From Rubrivivax sp. (GTDB taxonomy: Bacteria > Pseudomonadota > Gammaproteobacteria > Burkholderiales > Burkholderiaceae_C), in contig JAIYCN010000340.1 of assembly GCA_027487995.1 (NCBI GenBank), positions 1-33,890 of the forward strand: a stretch of 33,890 bases of DNA. Reading direction: 5' to 3'. Shown here in pieces: positions 23,286 through 33,890 of the stretch. Made by a program: the position numbers and the translations under genes. The number at the start of each line of letters is the position of its first letter. The first letter of the stretch is position 1. The notes under the pieces were generated by a model. It had not been told where the DNA came from. It was given only the letters and a program-made list of their open reading frames with translations, and made no database searches.

Positions 23286-23362
23286 GCGGCTGTAGCTCAG
23301 TTGGATAGAGTACTTGGCTACGAACCAAGGGGTCGTGGGTTCGAATCCTGCCAGCCGCGCCA
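23286..23362 (+). tRNA. tRNA-Arg (anticodon ACG), CCA encoded
   Basis: Cloverleaf by eye: acceptor GCGGCTG/CAGCCGC + G + CCA; D-stem GCTC/GAGT; anticodon stem CTTGG-CTACGAA-CCAAG (ACG at 34-36); T-arm GTGGG-TTCGAAT-CCTGC. Confidence 0.95.
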
Positions 23363-23369
23363 GTAAAAA

Positions 23370-23410
23370 CAAGGGGTTGCATGTTCAAGCATGCAGCCCC
23401 TTGTCCTTTT
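23370..23410 (+). terminator. Rho-independent terminator downstream of tRNA-Arg
   Basis: CAAGGGGTTGCATG-TTCAA-GCATGCAGCCCCTTG stem (one G-T pair) followed by TCCTTTTT. Confidence 0.85.
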
Positions 23411-23421
23411 TGGCGCGGTTC

Positions 23422-24399
23422 TCAGTCCGCAGCGGGCAGGCTCCGCGCCAAGCGCGCAAATTTCCGCCGCTCTGCAGCCACGAAGTCCCTGTAGTCACTT
23501 GGGCTGGCGCTGCTGACCAGCGGCACGTCAGCCTGCGCCGCCATCGTCTGCACGGCTGATTGGCCCAAAGCTGACAGCACCGCTGCGTGCAGCCGTCGTG
23601 CCGTTGCGGGGCTCAGCCCCTTGGGCGCTGAAATCCCCGACCAGCCCTCGATCACGGCGTCTGTCGTGCCCAGTGTCTGCGCCAGCGTGGGAGTCCCCGG
23701 CAACGCCGCGCTAGGCCGCGCGGCCGACAATGCCAGGGCCCGCAACTTGCCCTGGCGGATCAGCGGAATGGCGGTTGATTGCACGGGGCAGGCAAAGGCC
23801 AGTTCTCCCCGTTCCAGCGCCGGGAACAGGTCGACCGAGCCGCGGTAGGGCACATGCAAAGCCGCCGTGCCGCTGCTTCCCAAAAGGGCCAACCCCACGA
23901 AATGGGCCAGCGACCCCACACCACCCGACCCATAGTTCAGTGCATTGGGGCTGCGTCGCATGGCCGCCAGCAACTGTTCCAGGGTCTGGTACGGGCTGGC
24001 CGCTCCAACCGTCACCACGCCATAGCCGCTGCCCGTCAGGGACAGGTGGTCGAAATCCTGTACCGGGTCCAATCGACTCTGCGTGCTGAGTACGGACTGG
24101 ATCACCATGTTCACGGAACTGGCCAACAGCGTGCTTCCGTCCGGCGCGGCCCGCGCCACCGACTCGGCGCCAATCAGCCCGGCGGCCCCTGGCCGGTTCA
24201 CCACCACAACTGACTGACCCAGCGCCTGCTCCAGGTGCTGGGCCAATTTCCGCGTGAGCAACTCGGGTCCACCCCCCGCAGGAAATGGAATCACCAGCGT
24301 GATCGTGCCTTCGCCCCTCGCACGGCCAGGCCACCCAAGGCCCGCCCCCAAGACGCTTGCGCATCCCCAGTTGATCAATTGGCGTCTGACAGCACCCAT
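23422..24399 (-). CDS. Bug/TctC-family periplasmic tripartite tricarboxylate transporter substrate-binding protein
   Basis: ITLVIPFPAGGGPELLTRKLAQHLEQALGQSVVVVNRPGAAGLIGAESVARAAPDGSTLL...GWSGISAPKGLSPATARRLHAAV, classic Bug family pattern. Confidence 0.93.
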   Translation of the reverse strand: MGAVRRQLINWGCASVLGAGLGWPGRARGEGTITLVIPFPAGGGPELLTRKLAQHLEQALGQSVVVVNRPGAAGLIGAESVARAAPDGSTLLASSVNMVIQSVLSTQSRLDPVQDFDHLSLTGSGYGVVTVGAASPYQTLEQLLAAMRRSPNALNYGSGGVGSLAHFVGLALLGSSGTAALHVPYRGSVDLFPALERGELAFACPVQSTAIPLIRQGKLRALALSAARPSAALPGTPTLAQTLGTTDAVIEGWSGISAPKGLSPATARRLHAAVLSALGQSAVQTMAAQADVPLVSSASPSDYRDFVAAERRKFARLARSLPAAD

Positions 24400-24457
24400 C
24401 GGGGTATGCTAGCCCTATCTACCGAAAACGATCAATGAACTTCGGAGCCCCCATCTC

Positions 24458-26233
24458 ATGACGGGTCAAGCCAATGATCCCCTTCGGCTCCCTCCCTTGT
24501 CAGGAATGAGTTCGCTGGGCCATGCCCCGGAGTCACCTCAAGGCAGCGCCGACAACCCAGCCCAACGACTTCAGTGGATCGAACAGGCGCTGACCTATGC
24601 CCGCGAGGTGGTGTGGGAATACGACGTCCGCACTCAGCAACTCGATTACTGCCGCTATGTCGACAGGCTGCACGGCACAGCCCAAAAAGGGCTGCCTTCC
24701 ACCTACGAGGCTCTCGTGGAGTCCATCCACCCCGAAGACCGCCCCGCAGCACGGCAAGCCATGGAGGATTTCCTCACGAAGCCCCTCGAGGAGTTCTACG
24801 TCGAATACCGGCTGTTGCGCGACGACGGGCAATGGGTCTGGAGCCGCAGCCGCGGCCGGGCAGCGGAGCGCGACGAACAGGGCCGCCCCTTGCGCATCCT
24901 GGGCACGGCCGTGGGCATTACCTACCTCAAGGAACTGCAGGCCTCTCTGCAGGAGTCCGAGCGTCGCCTGAAGGCCTCGGAAAGTCAGTTGCGCGAGCGC
25001 GAGCGGGAATTGCGCGCTGCCCTGGCCGCAGCCGAAGAGTCGGTGCGCAGCCGCACGCAGTTTCTGGCCACGATGTCGCACGAGATCCGCACGCCGCTCA
25101 ACAGCATCATCGGCGCCAGCCGGCTGGCCTTGCTGGAGAGTGATCCGACCCACGTGAACGAGCATCTGCAGTTGGTCAACGCGGCCTCGGCGCACCTCAT
25201 GGAGTTGGTCAACAACGTGCTGGACCATTCACGCCTGCAGGCCGGTGCGGTTGAACTGGACCCGCGCCCCACCGCTCTGCGCCATCTGCTGCAGGACCTG
25301 ACCCGCCAATTCAACCAGACCGCTGAAGCTCGCGGTCTGGAACTGCGCCTGCGGCTTGACCCTGCATTGCCTGCCGCCGTCAAGGCCGATGGCCTTCGGC
25401 TCACGCAGGTCATCACCAACCTCATGGCCAACGCCTTGCGGTTCACCCATGTCGGCGGCGTGGAGTTGCGCGCCGAGTCGCTTGGGCAGCACGGCGAACT
25501 GCAGCGCATTCGCCTCAGCGTCTCCGACACCGGCATCGGCATGACCACCGATCAGGCGCAGCGCCTCTTCCATGCCTACGCGCAGGCCGACTCGTCGATT
25601 GCGCGCCGCTATGGCGGCACCGGTCTGGGCCTGGCCATCAGCCATCGACTGGTTCAGATGATGGGCAGTGAACTCACGGTGCAGAGCCAGTTGGGCGTGG
25701 GTTCGGTCTTCGGTTTCGAATTGCTGCTGCCGCCTGCTGAATTGCCGCTGGCCTCCATGGGCGTCGAGGACGCAGAGCGGCGGATGCAGGACCGTGCAGT
25801 TCAGGCACAGGACCGCTGGATGCAGGCGGCCCAAAGCCTGCGTGGGCGTCTCATCCTGGTGGTGGACGACAACCCCATGAATCTCACCGTGGTGCGTCGT
25901 TTCCTGGAACGTGCCGGCGTGCGCGTCATCACGTCGAACTCGCCGGTCCGGGCCATGGCCCTGTTGGCCGACGCGGCAGCCGATCAGTTACCCGACGCCG
26001 TGCTGATGGACCTGTACTTGCCCGAGATGAGCGGCGCAGATGCCACGCGTCTGATCCGTCAGCACATGGGGCTGGTCGACTTGCCGGTCGTGGCGGTATC
26101 GGCCAGTGTCACGCCCGAAGAGCAGCAAGCCTGCACCGATTCCGGCATGAATGACTTCGTCTCCAAGCCGATCGACCCCGAGCGGCTGCTGCTCGCGCTG
26201 CGGCGCTTGATACTGGGCGGCGACCATTCGTAA
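24458..26233 (+). CDS. Hybrid sensor histidine kinase (PAS-HisKA-HATPase-REC)
   Basis: PAS-like IHPEDRPAARQ...EFYVEYRLLRDDGQWVWSRSRGRA; H-box FLATMSHEIRTPLNSIIG; N-box QVITNLMANALRFT; G-boxes SDTGIGM and YGGTGLGLAIS; receiver ILVVDDNPMNLTVVRRFLE...VLMDLYLPEMSGADATRLIR...FVSKPIDPERL. Confidence 0.95.
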   Translation: MTGQANDPLRLPPLSGMSSLGHAPESPQGSADNPAQRLQWIEQALTYAREVVWEYDVRTQQLDYCRYVDRLHGTAQKGLPSTYEALVESIHPEDRPAARQAMEDFLTKPLEEFYVEYRLLRDDGQWVWSRSRGRAAERDEQGRPLRILGTAVGITYLKELQASLQESERRLKASESQLRERERELRAALAAAEESVRSRTQFLATMSHEIRTPLNSIIGASRLALLESDPTHVNEHLQLVNAASAHLMELVNNVLDHSRLQAGAVELDPRPTALRHLLQDLTRQFNQTAEARGLELRLRLDPALPAAVKADGLRLTQVITNLMANALRFTHVGGVELRAESLGQHGELQRIRLSVSDTGIGMTTDQAQRLFHAYAQADSSIARRYGGTGLGLAISHRLVQMMGSELTVQSQLGVGSVFGFELLLPPAELPLASMGVEDAERRMQDRAVQAQDRWMQAAQSLRGRLILVVDDNPMNLTVVRRFLERAGVRVITSNSPVRAMALLADAAADQLPDAVLMDLYLPEMSGADATRLIRQHMGLVDLPVVAVSASVTPEEQQACTDSGMNDFVSKPIDPERLLLALRRLILGGDHS

Positions 26234-26272: not shown

Positions 26273-28537
26273 TCACTGGTCCACCGACACCGTCAGGCCC
26301 AGGGTACGCGGTGGTCCATAGAGGCCCTTGACGACACCCGTGAAGCTGCGGTCCTGTGAAACCAGATACGCTGTGTTGCGCAGGTTCTCACCCCACAGGG
26401 TCACCGTCCAGCCCGCGGCACGCCCGGCACCCCCTAAGGAAAACCGAGCGCCGGTGGTCGCATAGGGCGCAATGGCGTTGCGGCTGCGGTTGTCGGCGTT
26501 GCTGAACTGGGCCGACACACGGCTGTGGATCACGGACGCTTGAAGCGGTAATCCCGCCCAGTCGCTGCGCGCCTCCAAGGCCGCGCTCACCTTCTGGTCC
26601 GGTGCATAAGGCAGATGGTTGCCGTTGTAGTTCACGCCCAAACCACCGCCATTGAGGAACTCATCGAACCGCGCCCGCCCGCGATGCAGGCCGGCCACCA
26701 AGGTGAACACGCCGCCCAGTTGCGCCCTCGCATCCATCTCCAAGCCGCGCAGGCTCACGCGCCCTGCATTCGTGATGGCAATCGACGTGGCGCCCGTGGG
26801 CAGGGCCACGAACTGCTGCACCTGGTAGTTGCGGCCGTCGGCGTCATAAACGGCAGCGTTCACGCGAAGGGCGCCGTCCCACCATCGTGACTTCACGCCC
26901 ACTTCGTGCGCGGTCACCTGTTCGCTGTCGAACCGCAGTTGGCGTGCGGGGTCTGTGAGCACGGCGGTGATGCCGTCCAAGTTGTAGCCACCACTCTTGA
27001 AGGCCGTGGACCGCGTGGCGTAAGCCATCGTCTGCGGCCCAATCCGCGCGGTCAGGCCCACCCGCGGGGACACATCACGTTCGCGAAGTTCGGCAGTGAA
27101 GGGCGCCAGCGGAAACAGGCCCAACGCCGACAGCACCGGGTCCGCCTCATGCCGAAATGCCACGGACTTGCGCTCCTCCGTCAGCCGCACGCCGGCCAGC
27201 ACGCCCCACACCGGGTTCAGGGCCCATTCAGCATGTCCGAAGGCGGCTGATGAGCGAAGCCGAAGCGTGCCGTCACCCAGGGTGCGCCGATTGGCCAACC
27301 GCGCCTGCGCCGGGCTGCCCGGAGCCGGATAGTCGGCACCCGTCACGCTGGAGAAACGCTCGGCGTTGCGCTGGTCCATCAGGTGTGCGCCCACCACCAT
27401 CTGGCGGCCGGCGCCCCAGGATTTCGTCACGCGCGCCTCTTGGGTGAATTGCCAGAGGTCCGACACCGCATAGTCCGTTTCAATCAGTTCCAGGGGCGTC
27501 CAATCCCCTTCCGCATCGTCATAGCGCGACCGATGCCGCTGCACGGCCGTGATGGAGGTCAGCATCCAAGCCGAGCGCAGCGGCGCCTGCACGGTCAGTG
27601 CGGCGCCGTTGCGTGTGATGCGCTCGGTCGACCGCGTGTCCACCGCTGTGCTCCACGGGCCGGGTGCCAAGTTGAAGGGGCGGGTGCCCACCTCAAGCGC
27701 CTCGCCGTTGTAGCGCTGGCCCACATGGCCGTAGGACTCCACGCTCCATTCCACCCGCAGCCCGTGAGGCCCCTTCCACTGCAGCTGCCCGCGTGCGGCC
27801 TGCGTTCTTTGCTGTGTGGGCCGGTTGCCGTCGCGGAACAGGTTGCGCACATAGCCACCGTCCTGGCTGTCCGACACCATCAGGGCTGCGCTCAGTCCTT
27901 GACCACCGCTGCGGACCGCCGGCGCGTCAGCGCCGGAAACACCCGATGCACCCGGCGCCCCGCTCTCCAGTGGTCCCCCCAGCCAGGCCCAGGCGCGTCG
28001 GCGGCCGAACTCCCCACCTTCCATGGCCGCGCTGAATTCAAAGCGGTCTGCAGGCTTGCGCGTGGTCAGCATCACCGCACCGGCCACCGTGTTGCGGCCC
28101 AGCAGCGTGCCTTGCGGTCCTCTCAACACTTCAACCTGTTCAATGCCCGCCAGCGATTGGCTGAGCGCAGGCTGACGACCCGCATACACGCCGTCCACAT
28201 AGACCGCCACGCTGCCATCAAAGCCCTGGTTGCGCGCAAAGTCGTTGATGCCCCGGATGCCCAAGCGTGCCGCGCCCACCCGGGCCAGCCCACCACCGGT
28301 GACGCTGGCCGAAAGTGCGCTCAGGTCAAACAGGTCGCGCAGTCCCGCACGCTCCAGGTCGCGCGCCCGCTGAACTTCCATGGAAAGCGCCACCTCCTGT
28401 TCGTCCTGCAGCACCTTTTGCGCTTGCACCATCACCACCGGCAATCCCGCTGTCTGGGCGTGGCACGTCACCACCGCCAGCATCAGGCTCGCCGCGCCCA
28501 GGCGCACCGATTTCGAGTCACAGCTTGAATGCGTCAT
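26273..28537 (-). CDS. TonB-dependent outer-membrane receptor
   Basis: From ATG at 28537 (MTHSSCDSKSVRLGAASLMLAVVTCHAQ): plug GIRGINDFARNQGFDGSVAVYVDGVYAGRQPALSQSLAGIEQVEVLRGPQGTLLGRNTVAGAVMLTTRKP; barrel terminus GLYGPPRTLGLTVSVDQ. The ORF-track 5' extension to 28846 overlaps lysR and is unlikely to be coding. Confidence 0.92.
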   Translation of the reverse strand: MTHSSCDSKSVRLGAASLMLAVVTCHAQTAGLPVVMVQAQKVLQDEQEVALSMEVQRARDLERAGLRDLFDLSALSASVTGGGLARVGAARLGIRGINDFARNQGFDGSVAVYVDGVYAGRQPALSQSLAGIEQVEVLRGPQGTLLGRNTVAGAVMLTTRKPADRFEFSAAMEGGEFGRRRAWAWLGGPLESGAPGASGVSGADAPAVRSGGQGLSAALMVSDSQDGGYVRNLFRDGNRPTQQRTQAARGQLQWKGPHGLRVEWSVESYGHVGQRYNGEALEVGTRPFNLAPGPWSTAVDTRSTERITRNGAALTVQAPLRSAWMLTSITAVQRHRSRYDDAEGDWTPLELIETDYAVSDLWQFTQEARVTKSWGAGRQMVVGAHLMDQRNAERFSSVTGADYPAPGSPAQARLANRRTLGDGTLRLRSSAAFGHAEWALNPVWGVLAGVRLTEERKSVAFRHEADPVLSALGLFPLAPFTAELRERDVSPRVGLTARIGPQTMAYATRSTAFKSGGYNLDGITAVLTDPARQLRFDSEQVTAHEVGVKSRWWDGALRVNAAVYDADGRNYQVQQFVALPTGATSIAITNAGRVSLRGLEMDARAQLGGVFTLVAGLHRGRARFDEFLNGGGLGVNYNGNHLPYAPDQKVSAALEARSDWAGLPLQASVIHSRVSAQFSNADNRSRNAIAPYATTGARFSLGGAGRAAGWTVTLWGENLRNTAYLVSQDRSFTGVVKGLYGPPRTLGLTVSVDQ

Positions 28538-29424
28538 CGCCTGTCCGCCAAAAAGTTGATCAGTTCCTGATTGCGCGGCAGCCGCCAGCGCTCGGGCGGC
28601 CCCACCGCCTGGATGTAGTTGCCAAACCGCGTGATCGGCGTCCACGCCGGCAGCACACGCTCCAGGCGCCCATCCACCAGGGCATCTGCACACAGGTAGT
28701 CCGGCAGCAGCGCCACCCCCAGCCCCTGCAGGCAGGCCTCCAGCACTGCCTCGGGGTTGTCCACGTGGTAGCGGCTGTGCACGCGCACCCGCTGTCGCTC
28801 CTGTCCGTTGTCCAGCACCCACCAGTCGTCCGCCGGTTCGCGCCAATAGAACACGCAGGACCGGTCGGCCAAATCACCCGGCACGCTCACCGCCGCCTCG
28901 GCCGCCAACCACGCGGGAGAGGCCGCCAACAACCAACCCACCTGCGCCACGGACCGCACCGTCAGCTCCGGTGCTATCGGGGCCGCACTCCAGCGCAGGG
29001 CCATGTCCAGGCGTTCAAACGCGACATCCATCAGGCGGTCGGCCAACACCAGCTCCACTTCAACGCCAGGGTGCAGCCGCAGGAACTCGGGAAGGCGGCG
29101 GCTGAGCACCCGCTGTCCCCAGGACACCGGTGCCGTCAATCGAATGCGGCCGCTCAGGTCCGACCGCAGGGCCCGCAGCCGTTCTTCGCCTGCGGCCATT
29201 TCACCCAGGGCGCGCCGCGCGTGTTCCAGGTAGGTTTCACCGGCTGGGGTCAGCGCCACCCGCCGCGTGCTGCGGCTGAACAGGGTGGTGCCCACCATTT
29301 CCTCCAGCTGCGCCACCCGCTTGCTGACCACGCTCTTGCCCACGCCCAGGTCCTGCGCGCTGCGGCTCACGCTCAAGGTGTCGGCCACCTTCACGAATGC
29401 CCAGAGCATGTCGGTGCTGATCAC
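28534..29424 (-). CDS. LysR-family transcriptional regulator
   Basis: 296 aa. HTH MLWAFVKVADTLSVSRSAQDLGVGKSVVSKRVAQLEEMVGTTLFSRSTRRVALTPAGETYLEHAR plus substrate-binding domain. Confidence 0.94.
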   Translation of the reverse strand: MISTDMLWAFVKVADTLSVSRSAQDLGVGKSVVSKRVAQLEEMVGTTLFSRSTRRVALTPAGETYLEHARRALGEMAAGEERLRALRSDLSGRIRLTAPVSWGQRVLSRRLPEFLRLHPGVEVELVLADRLMDVAFERLDMALRWSAAPIAPELTVRSVAQVGWLLAASPAWLAAEAAVSVPGDLADRSCVFYWREPADDWWVLDNGQERQRVRVHSRYHVDNPEAVLEACLQGLGVALLPDYLCADALVDGRLERVLPAWTPITRFGNYIQAVGPPERWRLPRNQELINFLADRR

Positions 29425-29448
29425 GATTGTTTCCGAATTGCGTACAAA

Positions 29449-29465
29449 CCGTTCGCATTGAACGG
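29449..29465. promoter_or_regulatory. Perfect inverted repeat CCGTTC-GCATT-GAACGG in lysR/GST divergent promoter region
   Basis: 6-bp perfect arms, 5-nt centre, 25 bp upstream of the lysR start and 84 bp upstream of the GST ATG. Confidence 0.5.
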
Positions 29466-29548
29466 GATATGCAGCCGATCGTCAATCCCGCAGACTCCCC
29501 AAGGTGGGCACTTCAGACCCGCATCACACAACACGAGCAGGAGACATC

Positions 29549-30193
29549 ATGAAGATTTACGCCGATCCCATCACCGTGAACTGCCGCAAGGTGCTGGCTG
29601 GCCTGCAGCTGATGGGCGCGCCCTACGAGCTGGCGCACGTGGACTATTTCAAGGCCGAACAGAAGAGCGAGGCCTACACCGCCCTCAACCCCAACCAGTC
29701 CATTCCGGCCATGGTCGACGGTGACCTCGTGCTCTGGGAATCCAACGCCATCCTGCAGTACGCGGCCGACAAGATCGGCAACGACGCGGTCTACCCCAAG
29801 GACCTCAAGGTGCGCGCCGACGTCAACCGTTGGTTGCTGTGGGAAGCGGCTGCCTGGTTCCCCAGCTGCTACGTGTTCCTGGTGGAGAACTGCGTCAAGC
29901 CGCTGCTTGGCGGCGCGGCTGACCCGGCCATCCTGGACGCACAGGCCCCGAACTTCCACAAGCTGGCCGGCATCCTGGACGCCCGCCTGAAGAACAACCG
30001 GTGGGTGGCCGGCACCGCTGGCCCCACCATTGCCGACATCTCGCTGGCCTCGCCCATGCACCTGCATGGCTGGCAGAAGCTGCCCCTGGGCGACCATCCC
30101 AATCTGCGCCGCTGGCTGTTCGACGACGTCGAGAAGCTGCCGGCCTGGGCCAACACCTGGGTGGGCGAGGGCTTCACCACCAAGAAGGCGTGA
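29549..30193 (+). CDS. Glutathione S-transferase family protein
   Basis: Thioredoxin-fold N-terminus MKIYADPITVNCRKVLAGLQLMGAPYELAHVDY...ALNPNQSIPAMVDGDLVLWESNAILQYAADKIG; C-terminal NNRWVAGTAGPTIADISLASPMH. Confidence 0.94.
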   Translation: MKIYADPITVNCRKVLAGLQLMGAPYELAHVDYFKAEQKSEAYTALNPNQSIPAMVDGDLVLWESNAILQYAADKIGNDAVYPKDLKVRADVNRWLLWEAAAWFPSCYVFLVENCVKPLLGGAADPAILDAQAPNFHKLAGILDARLKNNRWVAGTAGPTIADISLASPMHLHGWQKLPLGDHPNLRRWLFDDVEKLPAWANTWVGEGFTTKKA

Positions 30194-30200
30194 TCTGCCG

Positions 30201-31019
30201 ATGAACGCTCCCACCTCTGTTCGCGCCACCATGAACTACTCGGTGGACAACGGCATCCCGCCGGACTACTACTTCTATGAACCCGATCCTTCGCTGAAGC
30301 TCAACCCGCCGGGCACCGACGTGAAGGAGGTGGAGATCCACAATGGTTGGCCGGAGGTCGAACGGCTGTCTTTGGACCGCGAGGGCTTCGAGCTGCGGGA
30401 GTTCGGGGCCAAGTTCGACCAGTTCGACGACGAGGAGTCGATCAGGACGGTGTTCCATCCGCAGGTGGTCGACTTCGTGAAGCGCCACACCGGTGCCAAG
30501 GAAGTCGTGGTGTTCGACCACACCATCCGCAAGCGCATGGCGTCCGACCTGAAGGTGCAGACGGAGGTGCACCGGCCGGCCGTGATGCTGGTGCACAGCG
30601 ACTACACCGTCATCAGCGGTCCTCAGCGTGTGCGCGACATCATGAAGCAGAAGGCCGAGCCCCTGCTTCAACAGCGGGTGGCCTTCTTCAACGTGTGGAA
30701 GCCGCTGTACCGCCGCGTGGAGGAACTGCCCCTGGCCATGATCGACGCCCAAAGCCACGATCCGGCCGACCTCCTGCGCATGGATTTGAAGTACCGCGAG
30801 CGCACCGGTGAGATCTACGTGATGCGTCACAACCCGGCCCATCGCTGGTTGTACTTTCCTCACATGGAGGCCCACCAGGCGCTGCTGCTCAAGACCTACG
30901 ACTCCAGCACGGATGGACGCTGCCGCTTCATGGGGCATTCGGCATTCGAAGATCCGACCACCCCGGCCGGCGCCCCCAAGCGCGAGAGCATCGAGGTGCG
31001 CACGATGGCCTTTTTCTGA
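30201..31019 (+). CDS. CmcJ/NvfI-family oxidoreductase (putative 2-oxoglutarate-dependent-like oxygenase)
   Basis: Family-characteristic segments PAVMLVHSDYTVISGPQRVRDIM, VAFFNVWKPLYRRVEELPLAMIDAQS, HRWLYFPHMEAHQALLLKTYDSSTDGRCRFMGHSAFEDPTTPAGAPKRESIEVRTMAFF. ATG at 30201, 7 nt after the GST stop. Confidence 0.85.
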   Translation: MNAPTSVRATMNYSVDNGIPPDYYFYEPDPSLKLNPPGTDVKEVEIHNGWPEVERLSLDREGFELREFGAKFDQFDDEESIRTVFHPQVVDFVKRHTGAKEVVVFDHTIRKRMASDLKVQTEVHRPAVMLVHSDYTVISGPQRVRDIMKQKAEPLLQQRVAFFNVWKPLYRRVEELPLAMIDAQSHDPADLLRMDLKYRERTGEIYVMRHNPAHRWLYFPHMEAHQALLLKTYDSSTDGRCRFMGHSAFEDPTTPAGAPKRESIEVRTMAFF

Positions 31020-31087: not shown

Positions 31088-31160
31088 GTCAACACCCCGG
31101 CCTTCAAGGGGACACTTGCGGCTGATCGGTCCTGTTCGGATCACACAGAAGTCAGTCTCG

Positions 31161-33890
31161 ATGAACAAGCTCTCCCTCACCGACAAGCGCAACCGCAGCA
31201 CCACCGAAACCCAGACCGACAAGGTCGCGATGACGCGCCCTGGGGTGCTGATGCTGGAGGCCAGTCGCGCCGACATTACCGGCATCGAACGTGAGGGCAA
31301 CCGCATCGTCGTGCGCTATCGCGACGGTCGCCGCCTGGTGGTCGAAGACTTCTTCCGGGCCGACAGCAGCGGCCTCATCGGTGACGTTGTTCTTCGTGAA
31401 CCGGATGGTTCGCTCTATTGGTGGAGCAACCCGCTGCAGGACTGGGGCATGGCGCGCCTGGAGCCCCTGGCCTCCATTGACCCCTTGTTGTTGACCGAGC
31501 CGGCCAATGCCGGCATGGTGGTCGCCGCTTTCGCCCCCGGTGGTGGTCTGCTGGGTGTGCTGGCTGGTGCGGGTCTCATCGGCGCGGCTGCCGCTGCCGG
31601 TGGTGGCAGTGGCGGCGGATCCAACTCGGGGGGAACACTGCCCCCTGCCGGCGGCGGCACCACCGTTCCGGCGGGCGGCACGCCGGTGGTTGTCAATGTA
31701 CCGGCGGCCAACGACGGGCTGTCACTTACGGAAGTCAACAGTGGCGTGGTCGTCAACATCACTCTGCCCAGCGCTGCCGTGGCGGGCGACCGCATCACCG
31801 TCACGGTCGATGGACGCTCGGGTACCGTCACTACCCTCTCCGCGGCTGACATCACGGCTGGCCGTATTGCCGTCATCTTGCCCAGCAGCAGCCTAATGCC
31901 TGCGGGCGAAGGTACTGCTGTGGTGTTGGTCACGGTGACGGACCCGGCAGGCGTGGCGCGCCCCGGCTCGCCCGGTTCGGTGGCCGTGTCGGTGGACGTG
32001 ATGGCCCCCACACTGCTCAATGCCAATCCCAGCAGCTATGCCGACAACGTAGGGGCGGTCCAAAGCGCGGTTTCTCGCGAACCCATCACCGACGATGCCA
32101 CGCCGGGTCTGAACATCGGCACCATTCCCGCCGGTACCACGCCGCTGCTCTACGCCAACGGCTTGCGCGTGGCCGCCACCTACAGCCCGAGCACCGGCAC
32201 GCTCACGCCGAACTCGGCACTTCCCAATGGCACGCACGACCTCAGCTATTCGTTGTCTGACGCAGCGGGCAACGAGAGCCCCCGCAGCGGTGCCCTCCGA
32301 CTGACGGTCTCGGCCGGCGCCGCATTGGGCATGTCCATCGCCGTGCCGGAGAACAACGGCGGCGGCATCTCCACGACCGAGGCAGCCGACGGTGTGGTGG
32401 TGGTGGTGACCCTGCCCAACACCTTGTCCGACGCGCAGCGCACTTCCTCGTCCTCCAACACCGGGCCTTCTTTGGTGGCGGCAGAGGCGGGGCGTTCTCA
32501 GGCACTCGCTGCACTCCCAGGCGACCGCGTCACGGTGAGGATCGATGACGGCCTTCCGGTCACCGTGGTCCTTACCGCGGCGGATGTGGCTGCCGGCCGC
32601 GTGAATGTGACATTGCCCCTGAGCGCCATCCAGGCAGCGGGGCAGGGCAGTGGCATCGTCAGCGCGGTGTACACCACCTCGGCCGGCGTGGTCTCGGAGC
32701 CGGTGACCACCGAAGTGTTCATCGACACCGACCCGCCGGTGCTGGGGGTGCCCACCCCCACCTCCTATGTCGACAACGTGGGGCCTGTGCAAGACCCGAT
32801 GTCCACAGCGCCGGTCACCGACGACACGACGCCGGGTCTGAACATCGGAACCGTGCCGTCGGGCACCACGGCCATCTTGTACGTCAACGGTCTGGCCGTG
32901 GCGTCGGTGTATGACCCCGCCACCGGCAGCCTCACCCCGGTTTCTCCCTTGCCCAACGGACAAGTGCGCCTGACCTACAGCCTTCGGGATGACGTGGGCA
33001 ATGAAAGCCCCATCAGCAACCCGCTGGTGCTCACCATCAGCACGGGCTCACCCTCGGGCATGTCCATCACGGTGCCCGAGAACGCCGACGGTGGCATCAA
33101 CGCAGCCGAAGCCGCCGATGGCACGCCGGTGATCGTGTCGCTGCCGGTGGGCGCAGCGGCCGGTGAGCGAATTGAGGTGAGCATCAACGGTGGCACGGCG
33201 GTGAACGCCACGCTCAGCGCGGCGGATGTGGCCGCGGGCCGCATCACGGTGACGCTGCCCAACAGTGCTTTGGTGGCCGCAGGTCAGGGTGCGGGCACGG
33301 TGAGCGCGGTCTACACCACGGCTGCGGGCGTGACTTCAGCGCCGGCCACGGCCGATGTGCTCATCGACACCCTTGCACCCACGCTGACCAACGCCAACCC
33401 CAGCAGCTACAACGACAACGTGGGGCCGGTGCAAAACCCGATGTCCACCGCGCCGGTCACGGATGACACGACGCCGGGCCTGAATATCGGCTCGATTCCT
33501 GAGGATGTTGTTGCCATCCTGCTGATCAACGGCACGCCCGTGCCATCGGAATTCGTGAACGGCGTGCTCACGCCGCTGAGCCCGCTGCCCAACGGCCCGG
33601 CAGACCTGGCCTATCGCTTGCGGGATACCGCGGGCAACGAAAGCCCCATCAGCGCACCGCTGCGCCTGACCATCAGCACCAACGTGCCGGTGGGCATGTC
33701 CATCACCGTCCCTGAAAACGCTGACGGCGGCATCAACGCAGCCGAAGCCGCCGATGGCACGCCGGTGATCGTGTCGCTGCCTGTGGGCGCAGCGGCCGGT
33801 GAGCGCATTGCGGTGAGCATCAACGGTGGCACGGCGGTGAACGCCACGCTCAGCGCGGCGGATGTGGCCGCGGGCCGCATCACGGTGACG
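31161..33890 (+). CDS. Giant BapA/LapF-type repetitive (Ig-like) surface adhesin, 5' part (3' end outside window)
   Basis: 910 codons open from ATG 31161 to the last base. BapA prefix-like N-terminus (ADITGIEREGNRIVVRYRDGRRLVVEDFFRAD...DGSLYWW), Gly/Ala-rich segment GLLGVLAGAGLIGAAAAAGGGSGGG, then tandem ~212-aa repeats beginning MSITVPENADGGINAAEAADG. Absent from the ORF track because no stop lies in the window. Confidence 0.88.
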   Translation, partial: MNKLSLTDKRNRSTTETQTDKVAMTRPGVLMLEASRADITGIEREGNRIVVRYRDGRRLVVEDFFRADSSGLIGDVVLREPDGSLYWWSNPLQDWGMARLEPLASIDPLLLTEPANAGMVVAAFAPGGGLLGVLAGAGLIGAAAAAGGGSGGGSNSGGTLPPAGGGTTVPAGGTPVVVNVPAANDGLSLTEVNSGVVVNITLPSAAVAGDRITVTVDGRSGTVTTLSAADITAGRIAVILPSSSLMPAGEGTAVVLVTVTDPAGVARPGSPGSVAVSVDVMAPTLLNANPSSYADNVGAVQSAVSREPITDDATPGLNIGTIPAGTTPLLYANGLRVAATYSPSTGTLTPNSALPNGTHDLSYSLSDAAGNESPRSGALRLTVSAGAALGMSIAVPENNGGGISTTEAADGVVVVVTLPNTLSDAQRTSSSSNTGPSLVAAEAGRSQALAALPGDRVTVRIDDGLPVTVVLTAADVAAGRVNVTLPLSAIQAAGQGSGIVSAVYTTSAGVVSEPVTTEVFIDTDPPVLGVPTPTSYVDNVGPVQDPMSTAPVTDDTTPGLNIGTVPSGTTAILYVNGLAVASVYDPATGSLTPVSPLPNGQVRLTYSLRDDVGNESPISNPLVLTISTGSPSGMSITVPENADGGINAAEAADGTPVIVSLPVGAAAGERIEVSINGGTAVNATLSAADVAAGRITVTLPNSALVAAGQGAGTVSAVYTTAAGVTSAPATADVLIDTLAPTLTNANPSSYNDNVGPVQNPMSTAPVTDDTTPGLNIGSIPEDVVAILLINGTPVPSEFVNGVLTPLSPLPNGPADLAYRLRDTAGNESPISAPLRLTISTNVPVGMSITVPENADGGINAAEAADGTPVIVSLPVGAAAGERIAVSINGGTAVNATLSAADVAAGRITVT
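31686..33890 (+). repeat. Tandem adhesin repeat units: ~31686-32330, 32331-33059, 33060-33695, 33696-33890+ (partial)
   Basis: MSI-V-PEN starts at 32331, 33060 and 33696, with diverged first unit VNVPAANDG. Spacings 729 bp (243 aa) and 636 bp (212 aa). Shared core SSYxDNVGPVQxPMSTAPVTDDTTPGLNIG. Confidence 0.88.

Follow-up and report, generated by a model that had tools for sequence, protein, structure and literature searches.

A widespread LysR–glutathione S-transferase–CmcJ/NvfI gene module on a Rubrivivax contig and its parallel in dcm-type loci

The dcmRABC (dichloromethane) genes include that of the glutathione S-transferase (GST) DcmA, and DcmB is a dichloromethane-induced protein with no known function, whose closest annotated relative (30% identity) is a cephamycin hydroxylation/methyl-transfer protein (PMC7760279); on dichloromethane, transcripts of dcmA and dcmB ranked with the most abundant ones (PMC5585157). 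Members of the CmcJ/NvfI family catalyse varied reactions, including hydroxylation and endoperoxidation, and NvfI (novofumigatonin endoperoxidase), CTB9 and CmcJ act in biosynthesis. To our knowledge, none of these three occurs in a pair with a GST. The DNA analysed here, called the window, is a 33,890-nucleotide contig of Rubrivivax sp. (JAIYCN010000340.1), which carries a gene for a LysR-type regulator divergent from genes for a GST and a predicted CmcJ/NvfI-family Fe(II)/2-oxoglutarate (2OG) oxygenase. These three genes form a widespread, uncharacterised module, from which a misleading neighbour, a TonB-dependent receptor gene, has been removed and whose true boundaries are now given. The window is contig 177 of an assembly resembling a metagenome-assembled genome (MAG; Burkholderiales, 3.28 Mb, 411 contigs), in which the GST–CmcJ/NvfI unit was present in a single copy (83%-complete assembly).

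Related loci were sought in genome contigs with a profile built from six close oxygenases, and 51 named loci were obtained. They came from Burkholderiales, many from lakes (Limnohabitans, Hydrogenophaga, Rhodoferax, Rubrivivax, Methylibium), from Rhodopila globiformis and from gammaproteobacterial MAGs; the carriers span beta-, alpha- and gammaproteobacteria. Cultured carriers include Rubrivivax pictus W35, Hydrogenophaga sp. IBVHS2, Limnohabitans sp. 2KL-51 and Rhodopila globiformis DSM 161. The GST gene was directly upstream of cmcJ at all 51 (GST identity 62–83%), and a divergent LysR ortholog was present at 46 (53–79% identity), one of which (L047) was frameshifted; the five LysR-negative loci comprised four true absences (L048, L060, L061 and L062) and one locus on a truncated contig (L059). 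Downstream of cmcJ a convergent unrelated gene was usually found, as it was beyond lysR at most loci, and flanks were unrelated between loci (metG, ligA, RuBisCO-like and other genes, with fusA recognised by eye). At most loci the module therefore consists of two co-directional genes and their regulator, and nothing else. Flank genes were called with a simple script by which single genes may be wrong, and a minority of them was annotated. A larger pathway read from the flanks was considered and rejected, conservation not extending beyond the Limnohabitans group: at Limnohabitans-type loci only (e.g. L066:10877-15308), genes for a RuBisCO-like protein, a four-carbon acid sugar kinase-type protein, a short-chain dehydrogenase/reductase (SDR) and a hydrolase follow closely after cmcJ. 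Since the unit is kept across many genera, it is taken to be a real functional unit. A sequence-only reading of the window had proposed a compact four-gene unit including the receptor and had taken an association peculiar to this strain as counting against it; the three-gene core recurs in many genera, and it is the receptor that is restricted to this genome.

A tree built from 86 CmcJ rows put the 60 that are GST-linked on one side of a branch with support 100/100, and no GST open reading frame (ORF) was found near 50 unlinked CmcJ-family loci (mostly within 1.5 kb of flank, some loci being duplicates). In a sister subclade with 53–57% CmcJ identity (G065, G106, G154, G193, G200, G319 and G377), the GST, CmcJ and SDR genes stay adjacent despite a reshuffled order (divergent, or with the SDR gene between), the SDR dehydrogenase having 72–97% identity to the reference copy. 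This rearranged order with kept adjacency is the best evidence that the genes are functionally linked. No SDR gene is adjacent to the window unit. Pairwise distances were correlated between CmcJ and GST (r 0.71) and between CmcJ and LysR (r 0.80; 0/999 permutations), as would be expected of a unit inherited together.

The four genes were found where the sequence-only reading had placed them, all scoring strongly for their families, and two of their starts were corrected (Table 1): the GST ORF was listed from GTG 29504 and its conserved start is ATG 29549, and the receptor ORF as listed (TTG 28846) is overlong, the true start being ATG 28537. GST and cmcJ are separated by 7 bp.

Table 1. Features of the module, of its promoter and of dcm-type loci; positions without a locus prefix refer to the window
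Feature	Position	Strand	Evidence or content
TonB-dependent receptor, 754 aa	26273-28537	-	Pfam plug 2.6e-12, barrel 1.4e-27
LysR-type regulator, 296 aa, divergent from GST	28534-29424	-	Pfam HTH_1 and LysR_substrate
Divergent lysR/GST promoter region	29425-29503	no strand	intergenic comparison, 46 loci
Dyad GTTT-N13-AAAC	29429-29449		in lysR/GST promoter
Conserved GTTCGCATT	29451-29459		in lysR/GST promoter
GTCAAT	29481-29486		in lysR/GST promoter
CAGACT	29491-29496		in lysR/GST promoter
Glutathione S-transferase, 214 aa	29549-30193	+	Pfam GST_N 9.7e-14, GST_C
CmcJ/NvfI-family Fe(II)/2OG oxygenase (predicted), 272 aa	30201-31019	+	NF041278
dcm-type locus	L148:6721-11945		divergent MEDS/DcmR regulator (Pfam PF14417), DcmA-like GST, CmcJ/NvfI, CoA-transferase, nitrilase
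dcm-type locus	L150:3288-10040		same kinds of ORFs by eye; also CoA-transferase, nitrilase, LysR, second GST
dcm-type locus	L152:5613-8703		DcmR-like regulator (by eye) divergent from DcmA-like GST, then CmcJ/NvfI

Comparison of the 46 intergenic regions gave the recurrent pattern TGTTTCC-N9-(A)CAAA-N-GTTCGCATT ... GTCAAT ... TAGACT. The exact dyad occurred at 12 of these loci and never at more than 3 in shuffled sequences; it is of the T-N11-A type of a LysR-regulated divergent operon, and a LysR site is predicted here on sequence grounds. Some of the promoter conservation reflects common ancestry, though the loci span many genera.

The oxygenase matched NF041278 with 275 bits (cut-off 80) over model positions 1–263 of 263 and had no match among Pfam families; against PDB sequences NvfI was matched at 3.4e-28 with the facial triad aligned. 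H132, D134 and H246 (numbered from the ATG) correspond to the NvfI iron ligands at 135, 137 and 250, and R261 and R267 lie near the C-terminus. The NvfI paper prints the triad as His135-His137-Asp250 (PMC8292354), whereas in the deposited NvfI PDB chain residue 137 is Asp and residue 250 is His. The triad and the two arginines were invariant, gaps apart, across GST-linked, dcm-type and unlinked rows, and therefore mark membership of the family and not the substrate. The AlphaFold2 model (pLDDT 93) had NvfI (TM 0.89) and CTB9 (TM 0.83) as its best Foldseek matches, and an enzyme of the Fe(II)/2OG type is predicted. NvfI, CTB9 and CmcJ are like the window oxygenase in fold, facial triad and NF041278 membership, but identity is about 25% and the window clade is bacterial and separate. 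The GST has the thioredoxin-like GST_N domain, the GST_C domain and an invariant E64-S65 (the Glu-Ser motif of the glutathione site), as expected of a GST; its AlphaFold2 model (pLDDT 95.6) was closest by Foldseek to plant phi-class GSTs, with a phi/theta/Nu-like fold. It belongs to a subfamily of its own, the best plasmid relatives outside the module being below 40% identity.

Dcm-type loci were reached with a DcmA query meant to represent the Methylobacterium extorquens DM4 protein; its letters are supported only by its matches, which have MEDS regulators and nitrilases beside them. Relatives at 61–66% were found in five Rhizobiales-side genomes (order name inferred), and the gene after the DcmA-like GST encoded a CmcJ/NvfI protein (NF041278 207–218 bits) in the three with enough sequence around it (L148, L150 and L152) and partly in L151. 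Weaker DcmA relatives at 51% (L153 and L154) had no CmcJ adjacent, and true DcmA/DcmB were not found in the four Rhizobiales families searched. The dcm-type loci resemble the published dcm neighbourhood in their nitrilase and DcmR-type MEDS regulator. Gene order around these 61–66% relatives, whose genomes are not known to degrade dichloromethane, suggests that DcmB is a CmcJ/NvfI protein. The dcmRAB core of Methylobacterium and Hyphomicrobium would then share the layout of the window unit, a divergent regulator, a GST gene and, directly after it, a CmcJ/NvfI-family gene. The sequence-only reading, which missed this parallel, knew of no characterised pathway with exactly its four-gene composition, a statement to be qualified in view of this layout. 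The window regulator is of the LysR and not of the MEDS/DcmR type, its GST is not of the DcmA type (24.9–28.1% identity to DcmA-like GSTs in local alignments, the window GST being shorter), and its oxygenase has 31–32% identity to the dcm-type oxygenase and stands in a separate clade; the window unit is not known to dehalogenate. In the tree the dcm-type oxygenases grouped with unlinked family members. A single origin of dcm-type and window-type pairs was rejected by an approximately unbiased (AU) test of one clade (p-AU 2.6e-55), and the dcm-type pairing is therefore probably separate in origin. Two origins of the GST–CmcJ pairing would be simpler than an older pairing lost many times. These relatives would place DcmB, which is strongly induced by dichloromethane, in a 2OG-oxygenase family paired with GSTs in two separate lineages, and what the GST–oxygenase pair does becomes testable in either system.

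The conserved unit is probably a LysR-regulated operon whose GST and CmcJ/NvfI Fe(II)/2OG oxygenase act on one small molecule, most likely to break down or detoxify a metabolite from the environment or from the cell itself. LysR would sense a small-molecule inducer and switch on the divergent operon through the shared promoter dyad; with Fe(II), 2OG and O2, the oxygenase would introduce a hydroxyl group or a double bond into a small organic molecule, and the GST would add glutathione to, or remove it from, this molecule or its reactive product. The oxygenase could act first, producing an electrophile that glutathione then attacks, or second, opening a conjugate that the GST has formed, and in the sister subclade the SDR dehydrogenase may take a further step. 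The oxygenase of isoprene and styrene degradation is a diiron multicomponent monooxygenase, unlike the CmcJ/NvfI type. These pathways (IsoI GST, IsoH SDR and an oxygenase) resemble the sister subclade in the functional composition of oxygenase, GST and SDR (PMC10057887), and the window unit is without an adjacent SDR gene.

Several points weigh against one operon with one substrate. The correlated distances could be produced by common species descent alone, no LysR gene is adjacent at the four true absences, and most loci are MAG contigs. A literature search for the LysR/GST/CmcJ composition gave nothing direct, and no expression data, substrate, inducer or activity for the unit. The chemistry is unpredictable from sequence because reactions within the family vary, and the GST and the oxygenase might have different tasks within a single stress response.

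A specific form of the one-substrate operon, unlikely and speculative, is that the oxygenase would hydroxylate the carbon next to sulfur in a glutathione conjugate made by the GST, so that an aldehyde is split off and glutathione is freed, in a partnership that would have evolved at least twice (the module and dcmAB). It draws on CmcJ, whose substrate derives from a glutathione-like tripeptide. If true, it would amount to a new oxidative way of opening glutathione conjugates, and DcmB would acquire a function.

Among the alternatives, an oxidative- or electrophile-stress pair survives best, though it is unlikely: LysR would sense stress, the GST would be a glutathione-dependent reductase or peroxidase and the oxygenase would repair or modify a damaged endogenous metabolite, with no exogenous substrate. 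The position of the unit, alone among housekeeping genes and at most loci without a catabolic pathway or a transporter linked to it, would suit such a pair, as would its broad spread over lifestyles; it occurred in 9 of the 57 genera covered by the relatives search, a patchiness unlike that of a core stress function, and the subfamily of the GST is not that of a known glutathione reductase. A biosynthetic role, in which the two enzymes would build or modify a small secondary metabolite as CmcJ, NvfI and CTB9 do, is improbable: every characterised family member found is biosynthetic (PMC8292354), but no nonribosomal peptide synthetase, polyketide synthase or terpene synthase was among the minority of flanking genes that were annotated.

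The receptor start and the lysR stop share ATGA, and because of this 4-bp overlap the two genes are probably co-transcribed in this one genome and may be co-regulated. A relative of the receptor was beside the unit at 0 of the 51 related loci, and in 60 related genomes its ortholog was absent, the only relatives being at 27–31% identity; the receptor is thereby ruled out as a conserved member of the unit. At the closest sister locus (L016, CmcJ 89% identity) the order is hemD-hemX-hemY, tRNA-Arg, lysR, GST, cmcJ and bapA (hem names by eye), with no receptor; a single unrelated 507-codon ORF (L016:3476-4999) lies where the window has a tctC-like gene, a hybrid kinase gene and the receptor gene. 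Since content differs between the same flanks, the receptor sits in a variable segment beside the tRNA. The four-gene system of the sequence-only reading, in which a natural product or aromatic compound would enter through the receptor and be processed by oxygenase and GST under LysR control, is thus very improbable despite the overlap, the gene beyond lysR at most loci being convergent and unrelated, and receptor-mediated import of the module substrate is unsupported.

The variable segment of the window (23286-26233) has, after tRNA-Arg, genes for a TctC-type binding protein and a PAS hybrid histidine kinase, neither of which occurs at the sister locus; the 507-codon ORF of that locus has a zinc-protease-like HEFAHGLH motif and no Pfam match. 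A PADLOC defence-system search gave no match. A plasmid collection contained no member of the window CmcJ clade and just 23 distant CmcJ matches (<60% identity), some beside sulfur-assimilation genes; on Variovorax sp. PBL-E5 plasmid 3 (L142:522-10554) a distant CmcJ/NvfI gene lies amid genes for an encapsulin with cysteine desulfurase cargo, EpsC, a rhodanese and a CysB-type regulator. In three Rhizobacter MAGs a second, divergent CmcJ-family gene is directly downstream of the unit (L029:4345-5187, L033:10836-11663 and L039:2546-3391). Beyond cmcJ the window holds the start of a large bapA-like adhesin gene (BapA_N and Ig-like repeats; 31116-33890, cut by the window end), which also adjoins the sister-species unit, and an ARAGORN tRNA-Gly call at 31558-31655 inside its reading frame is probably a false positive.

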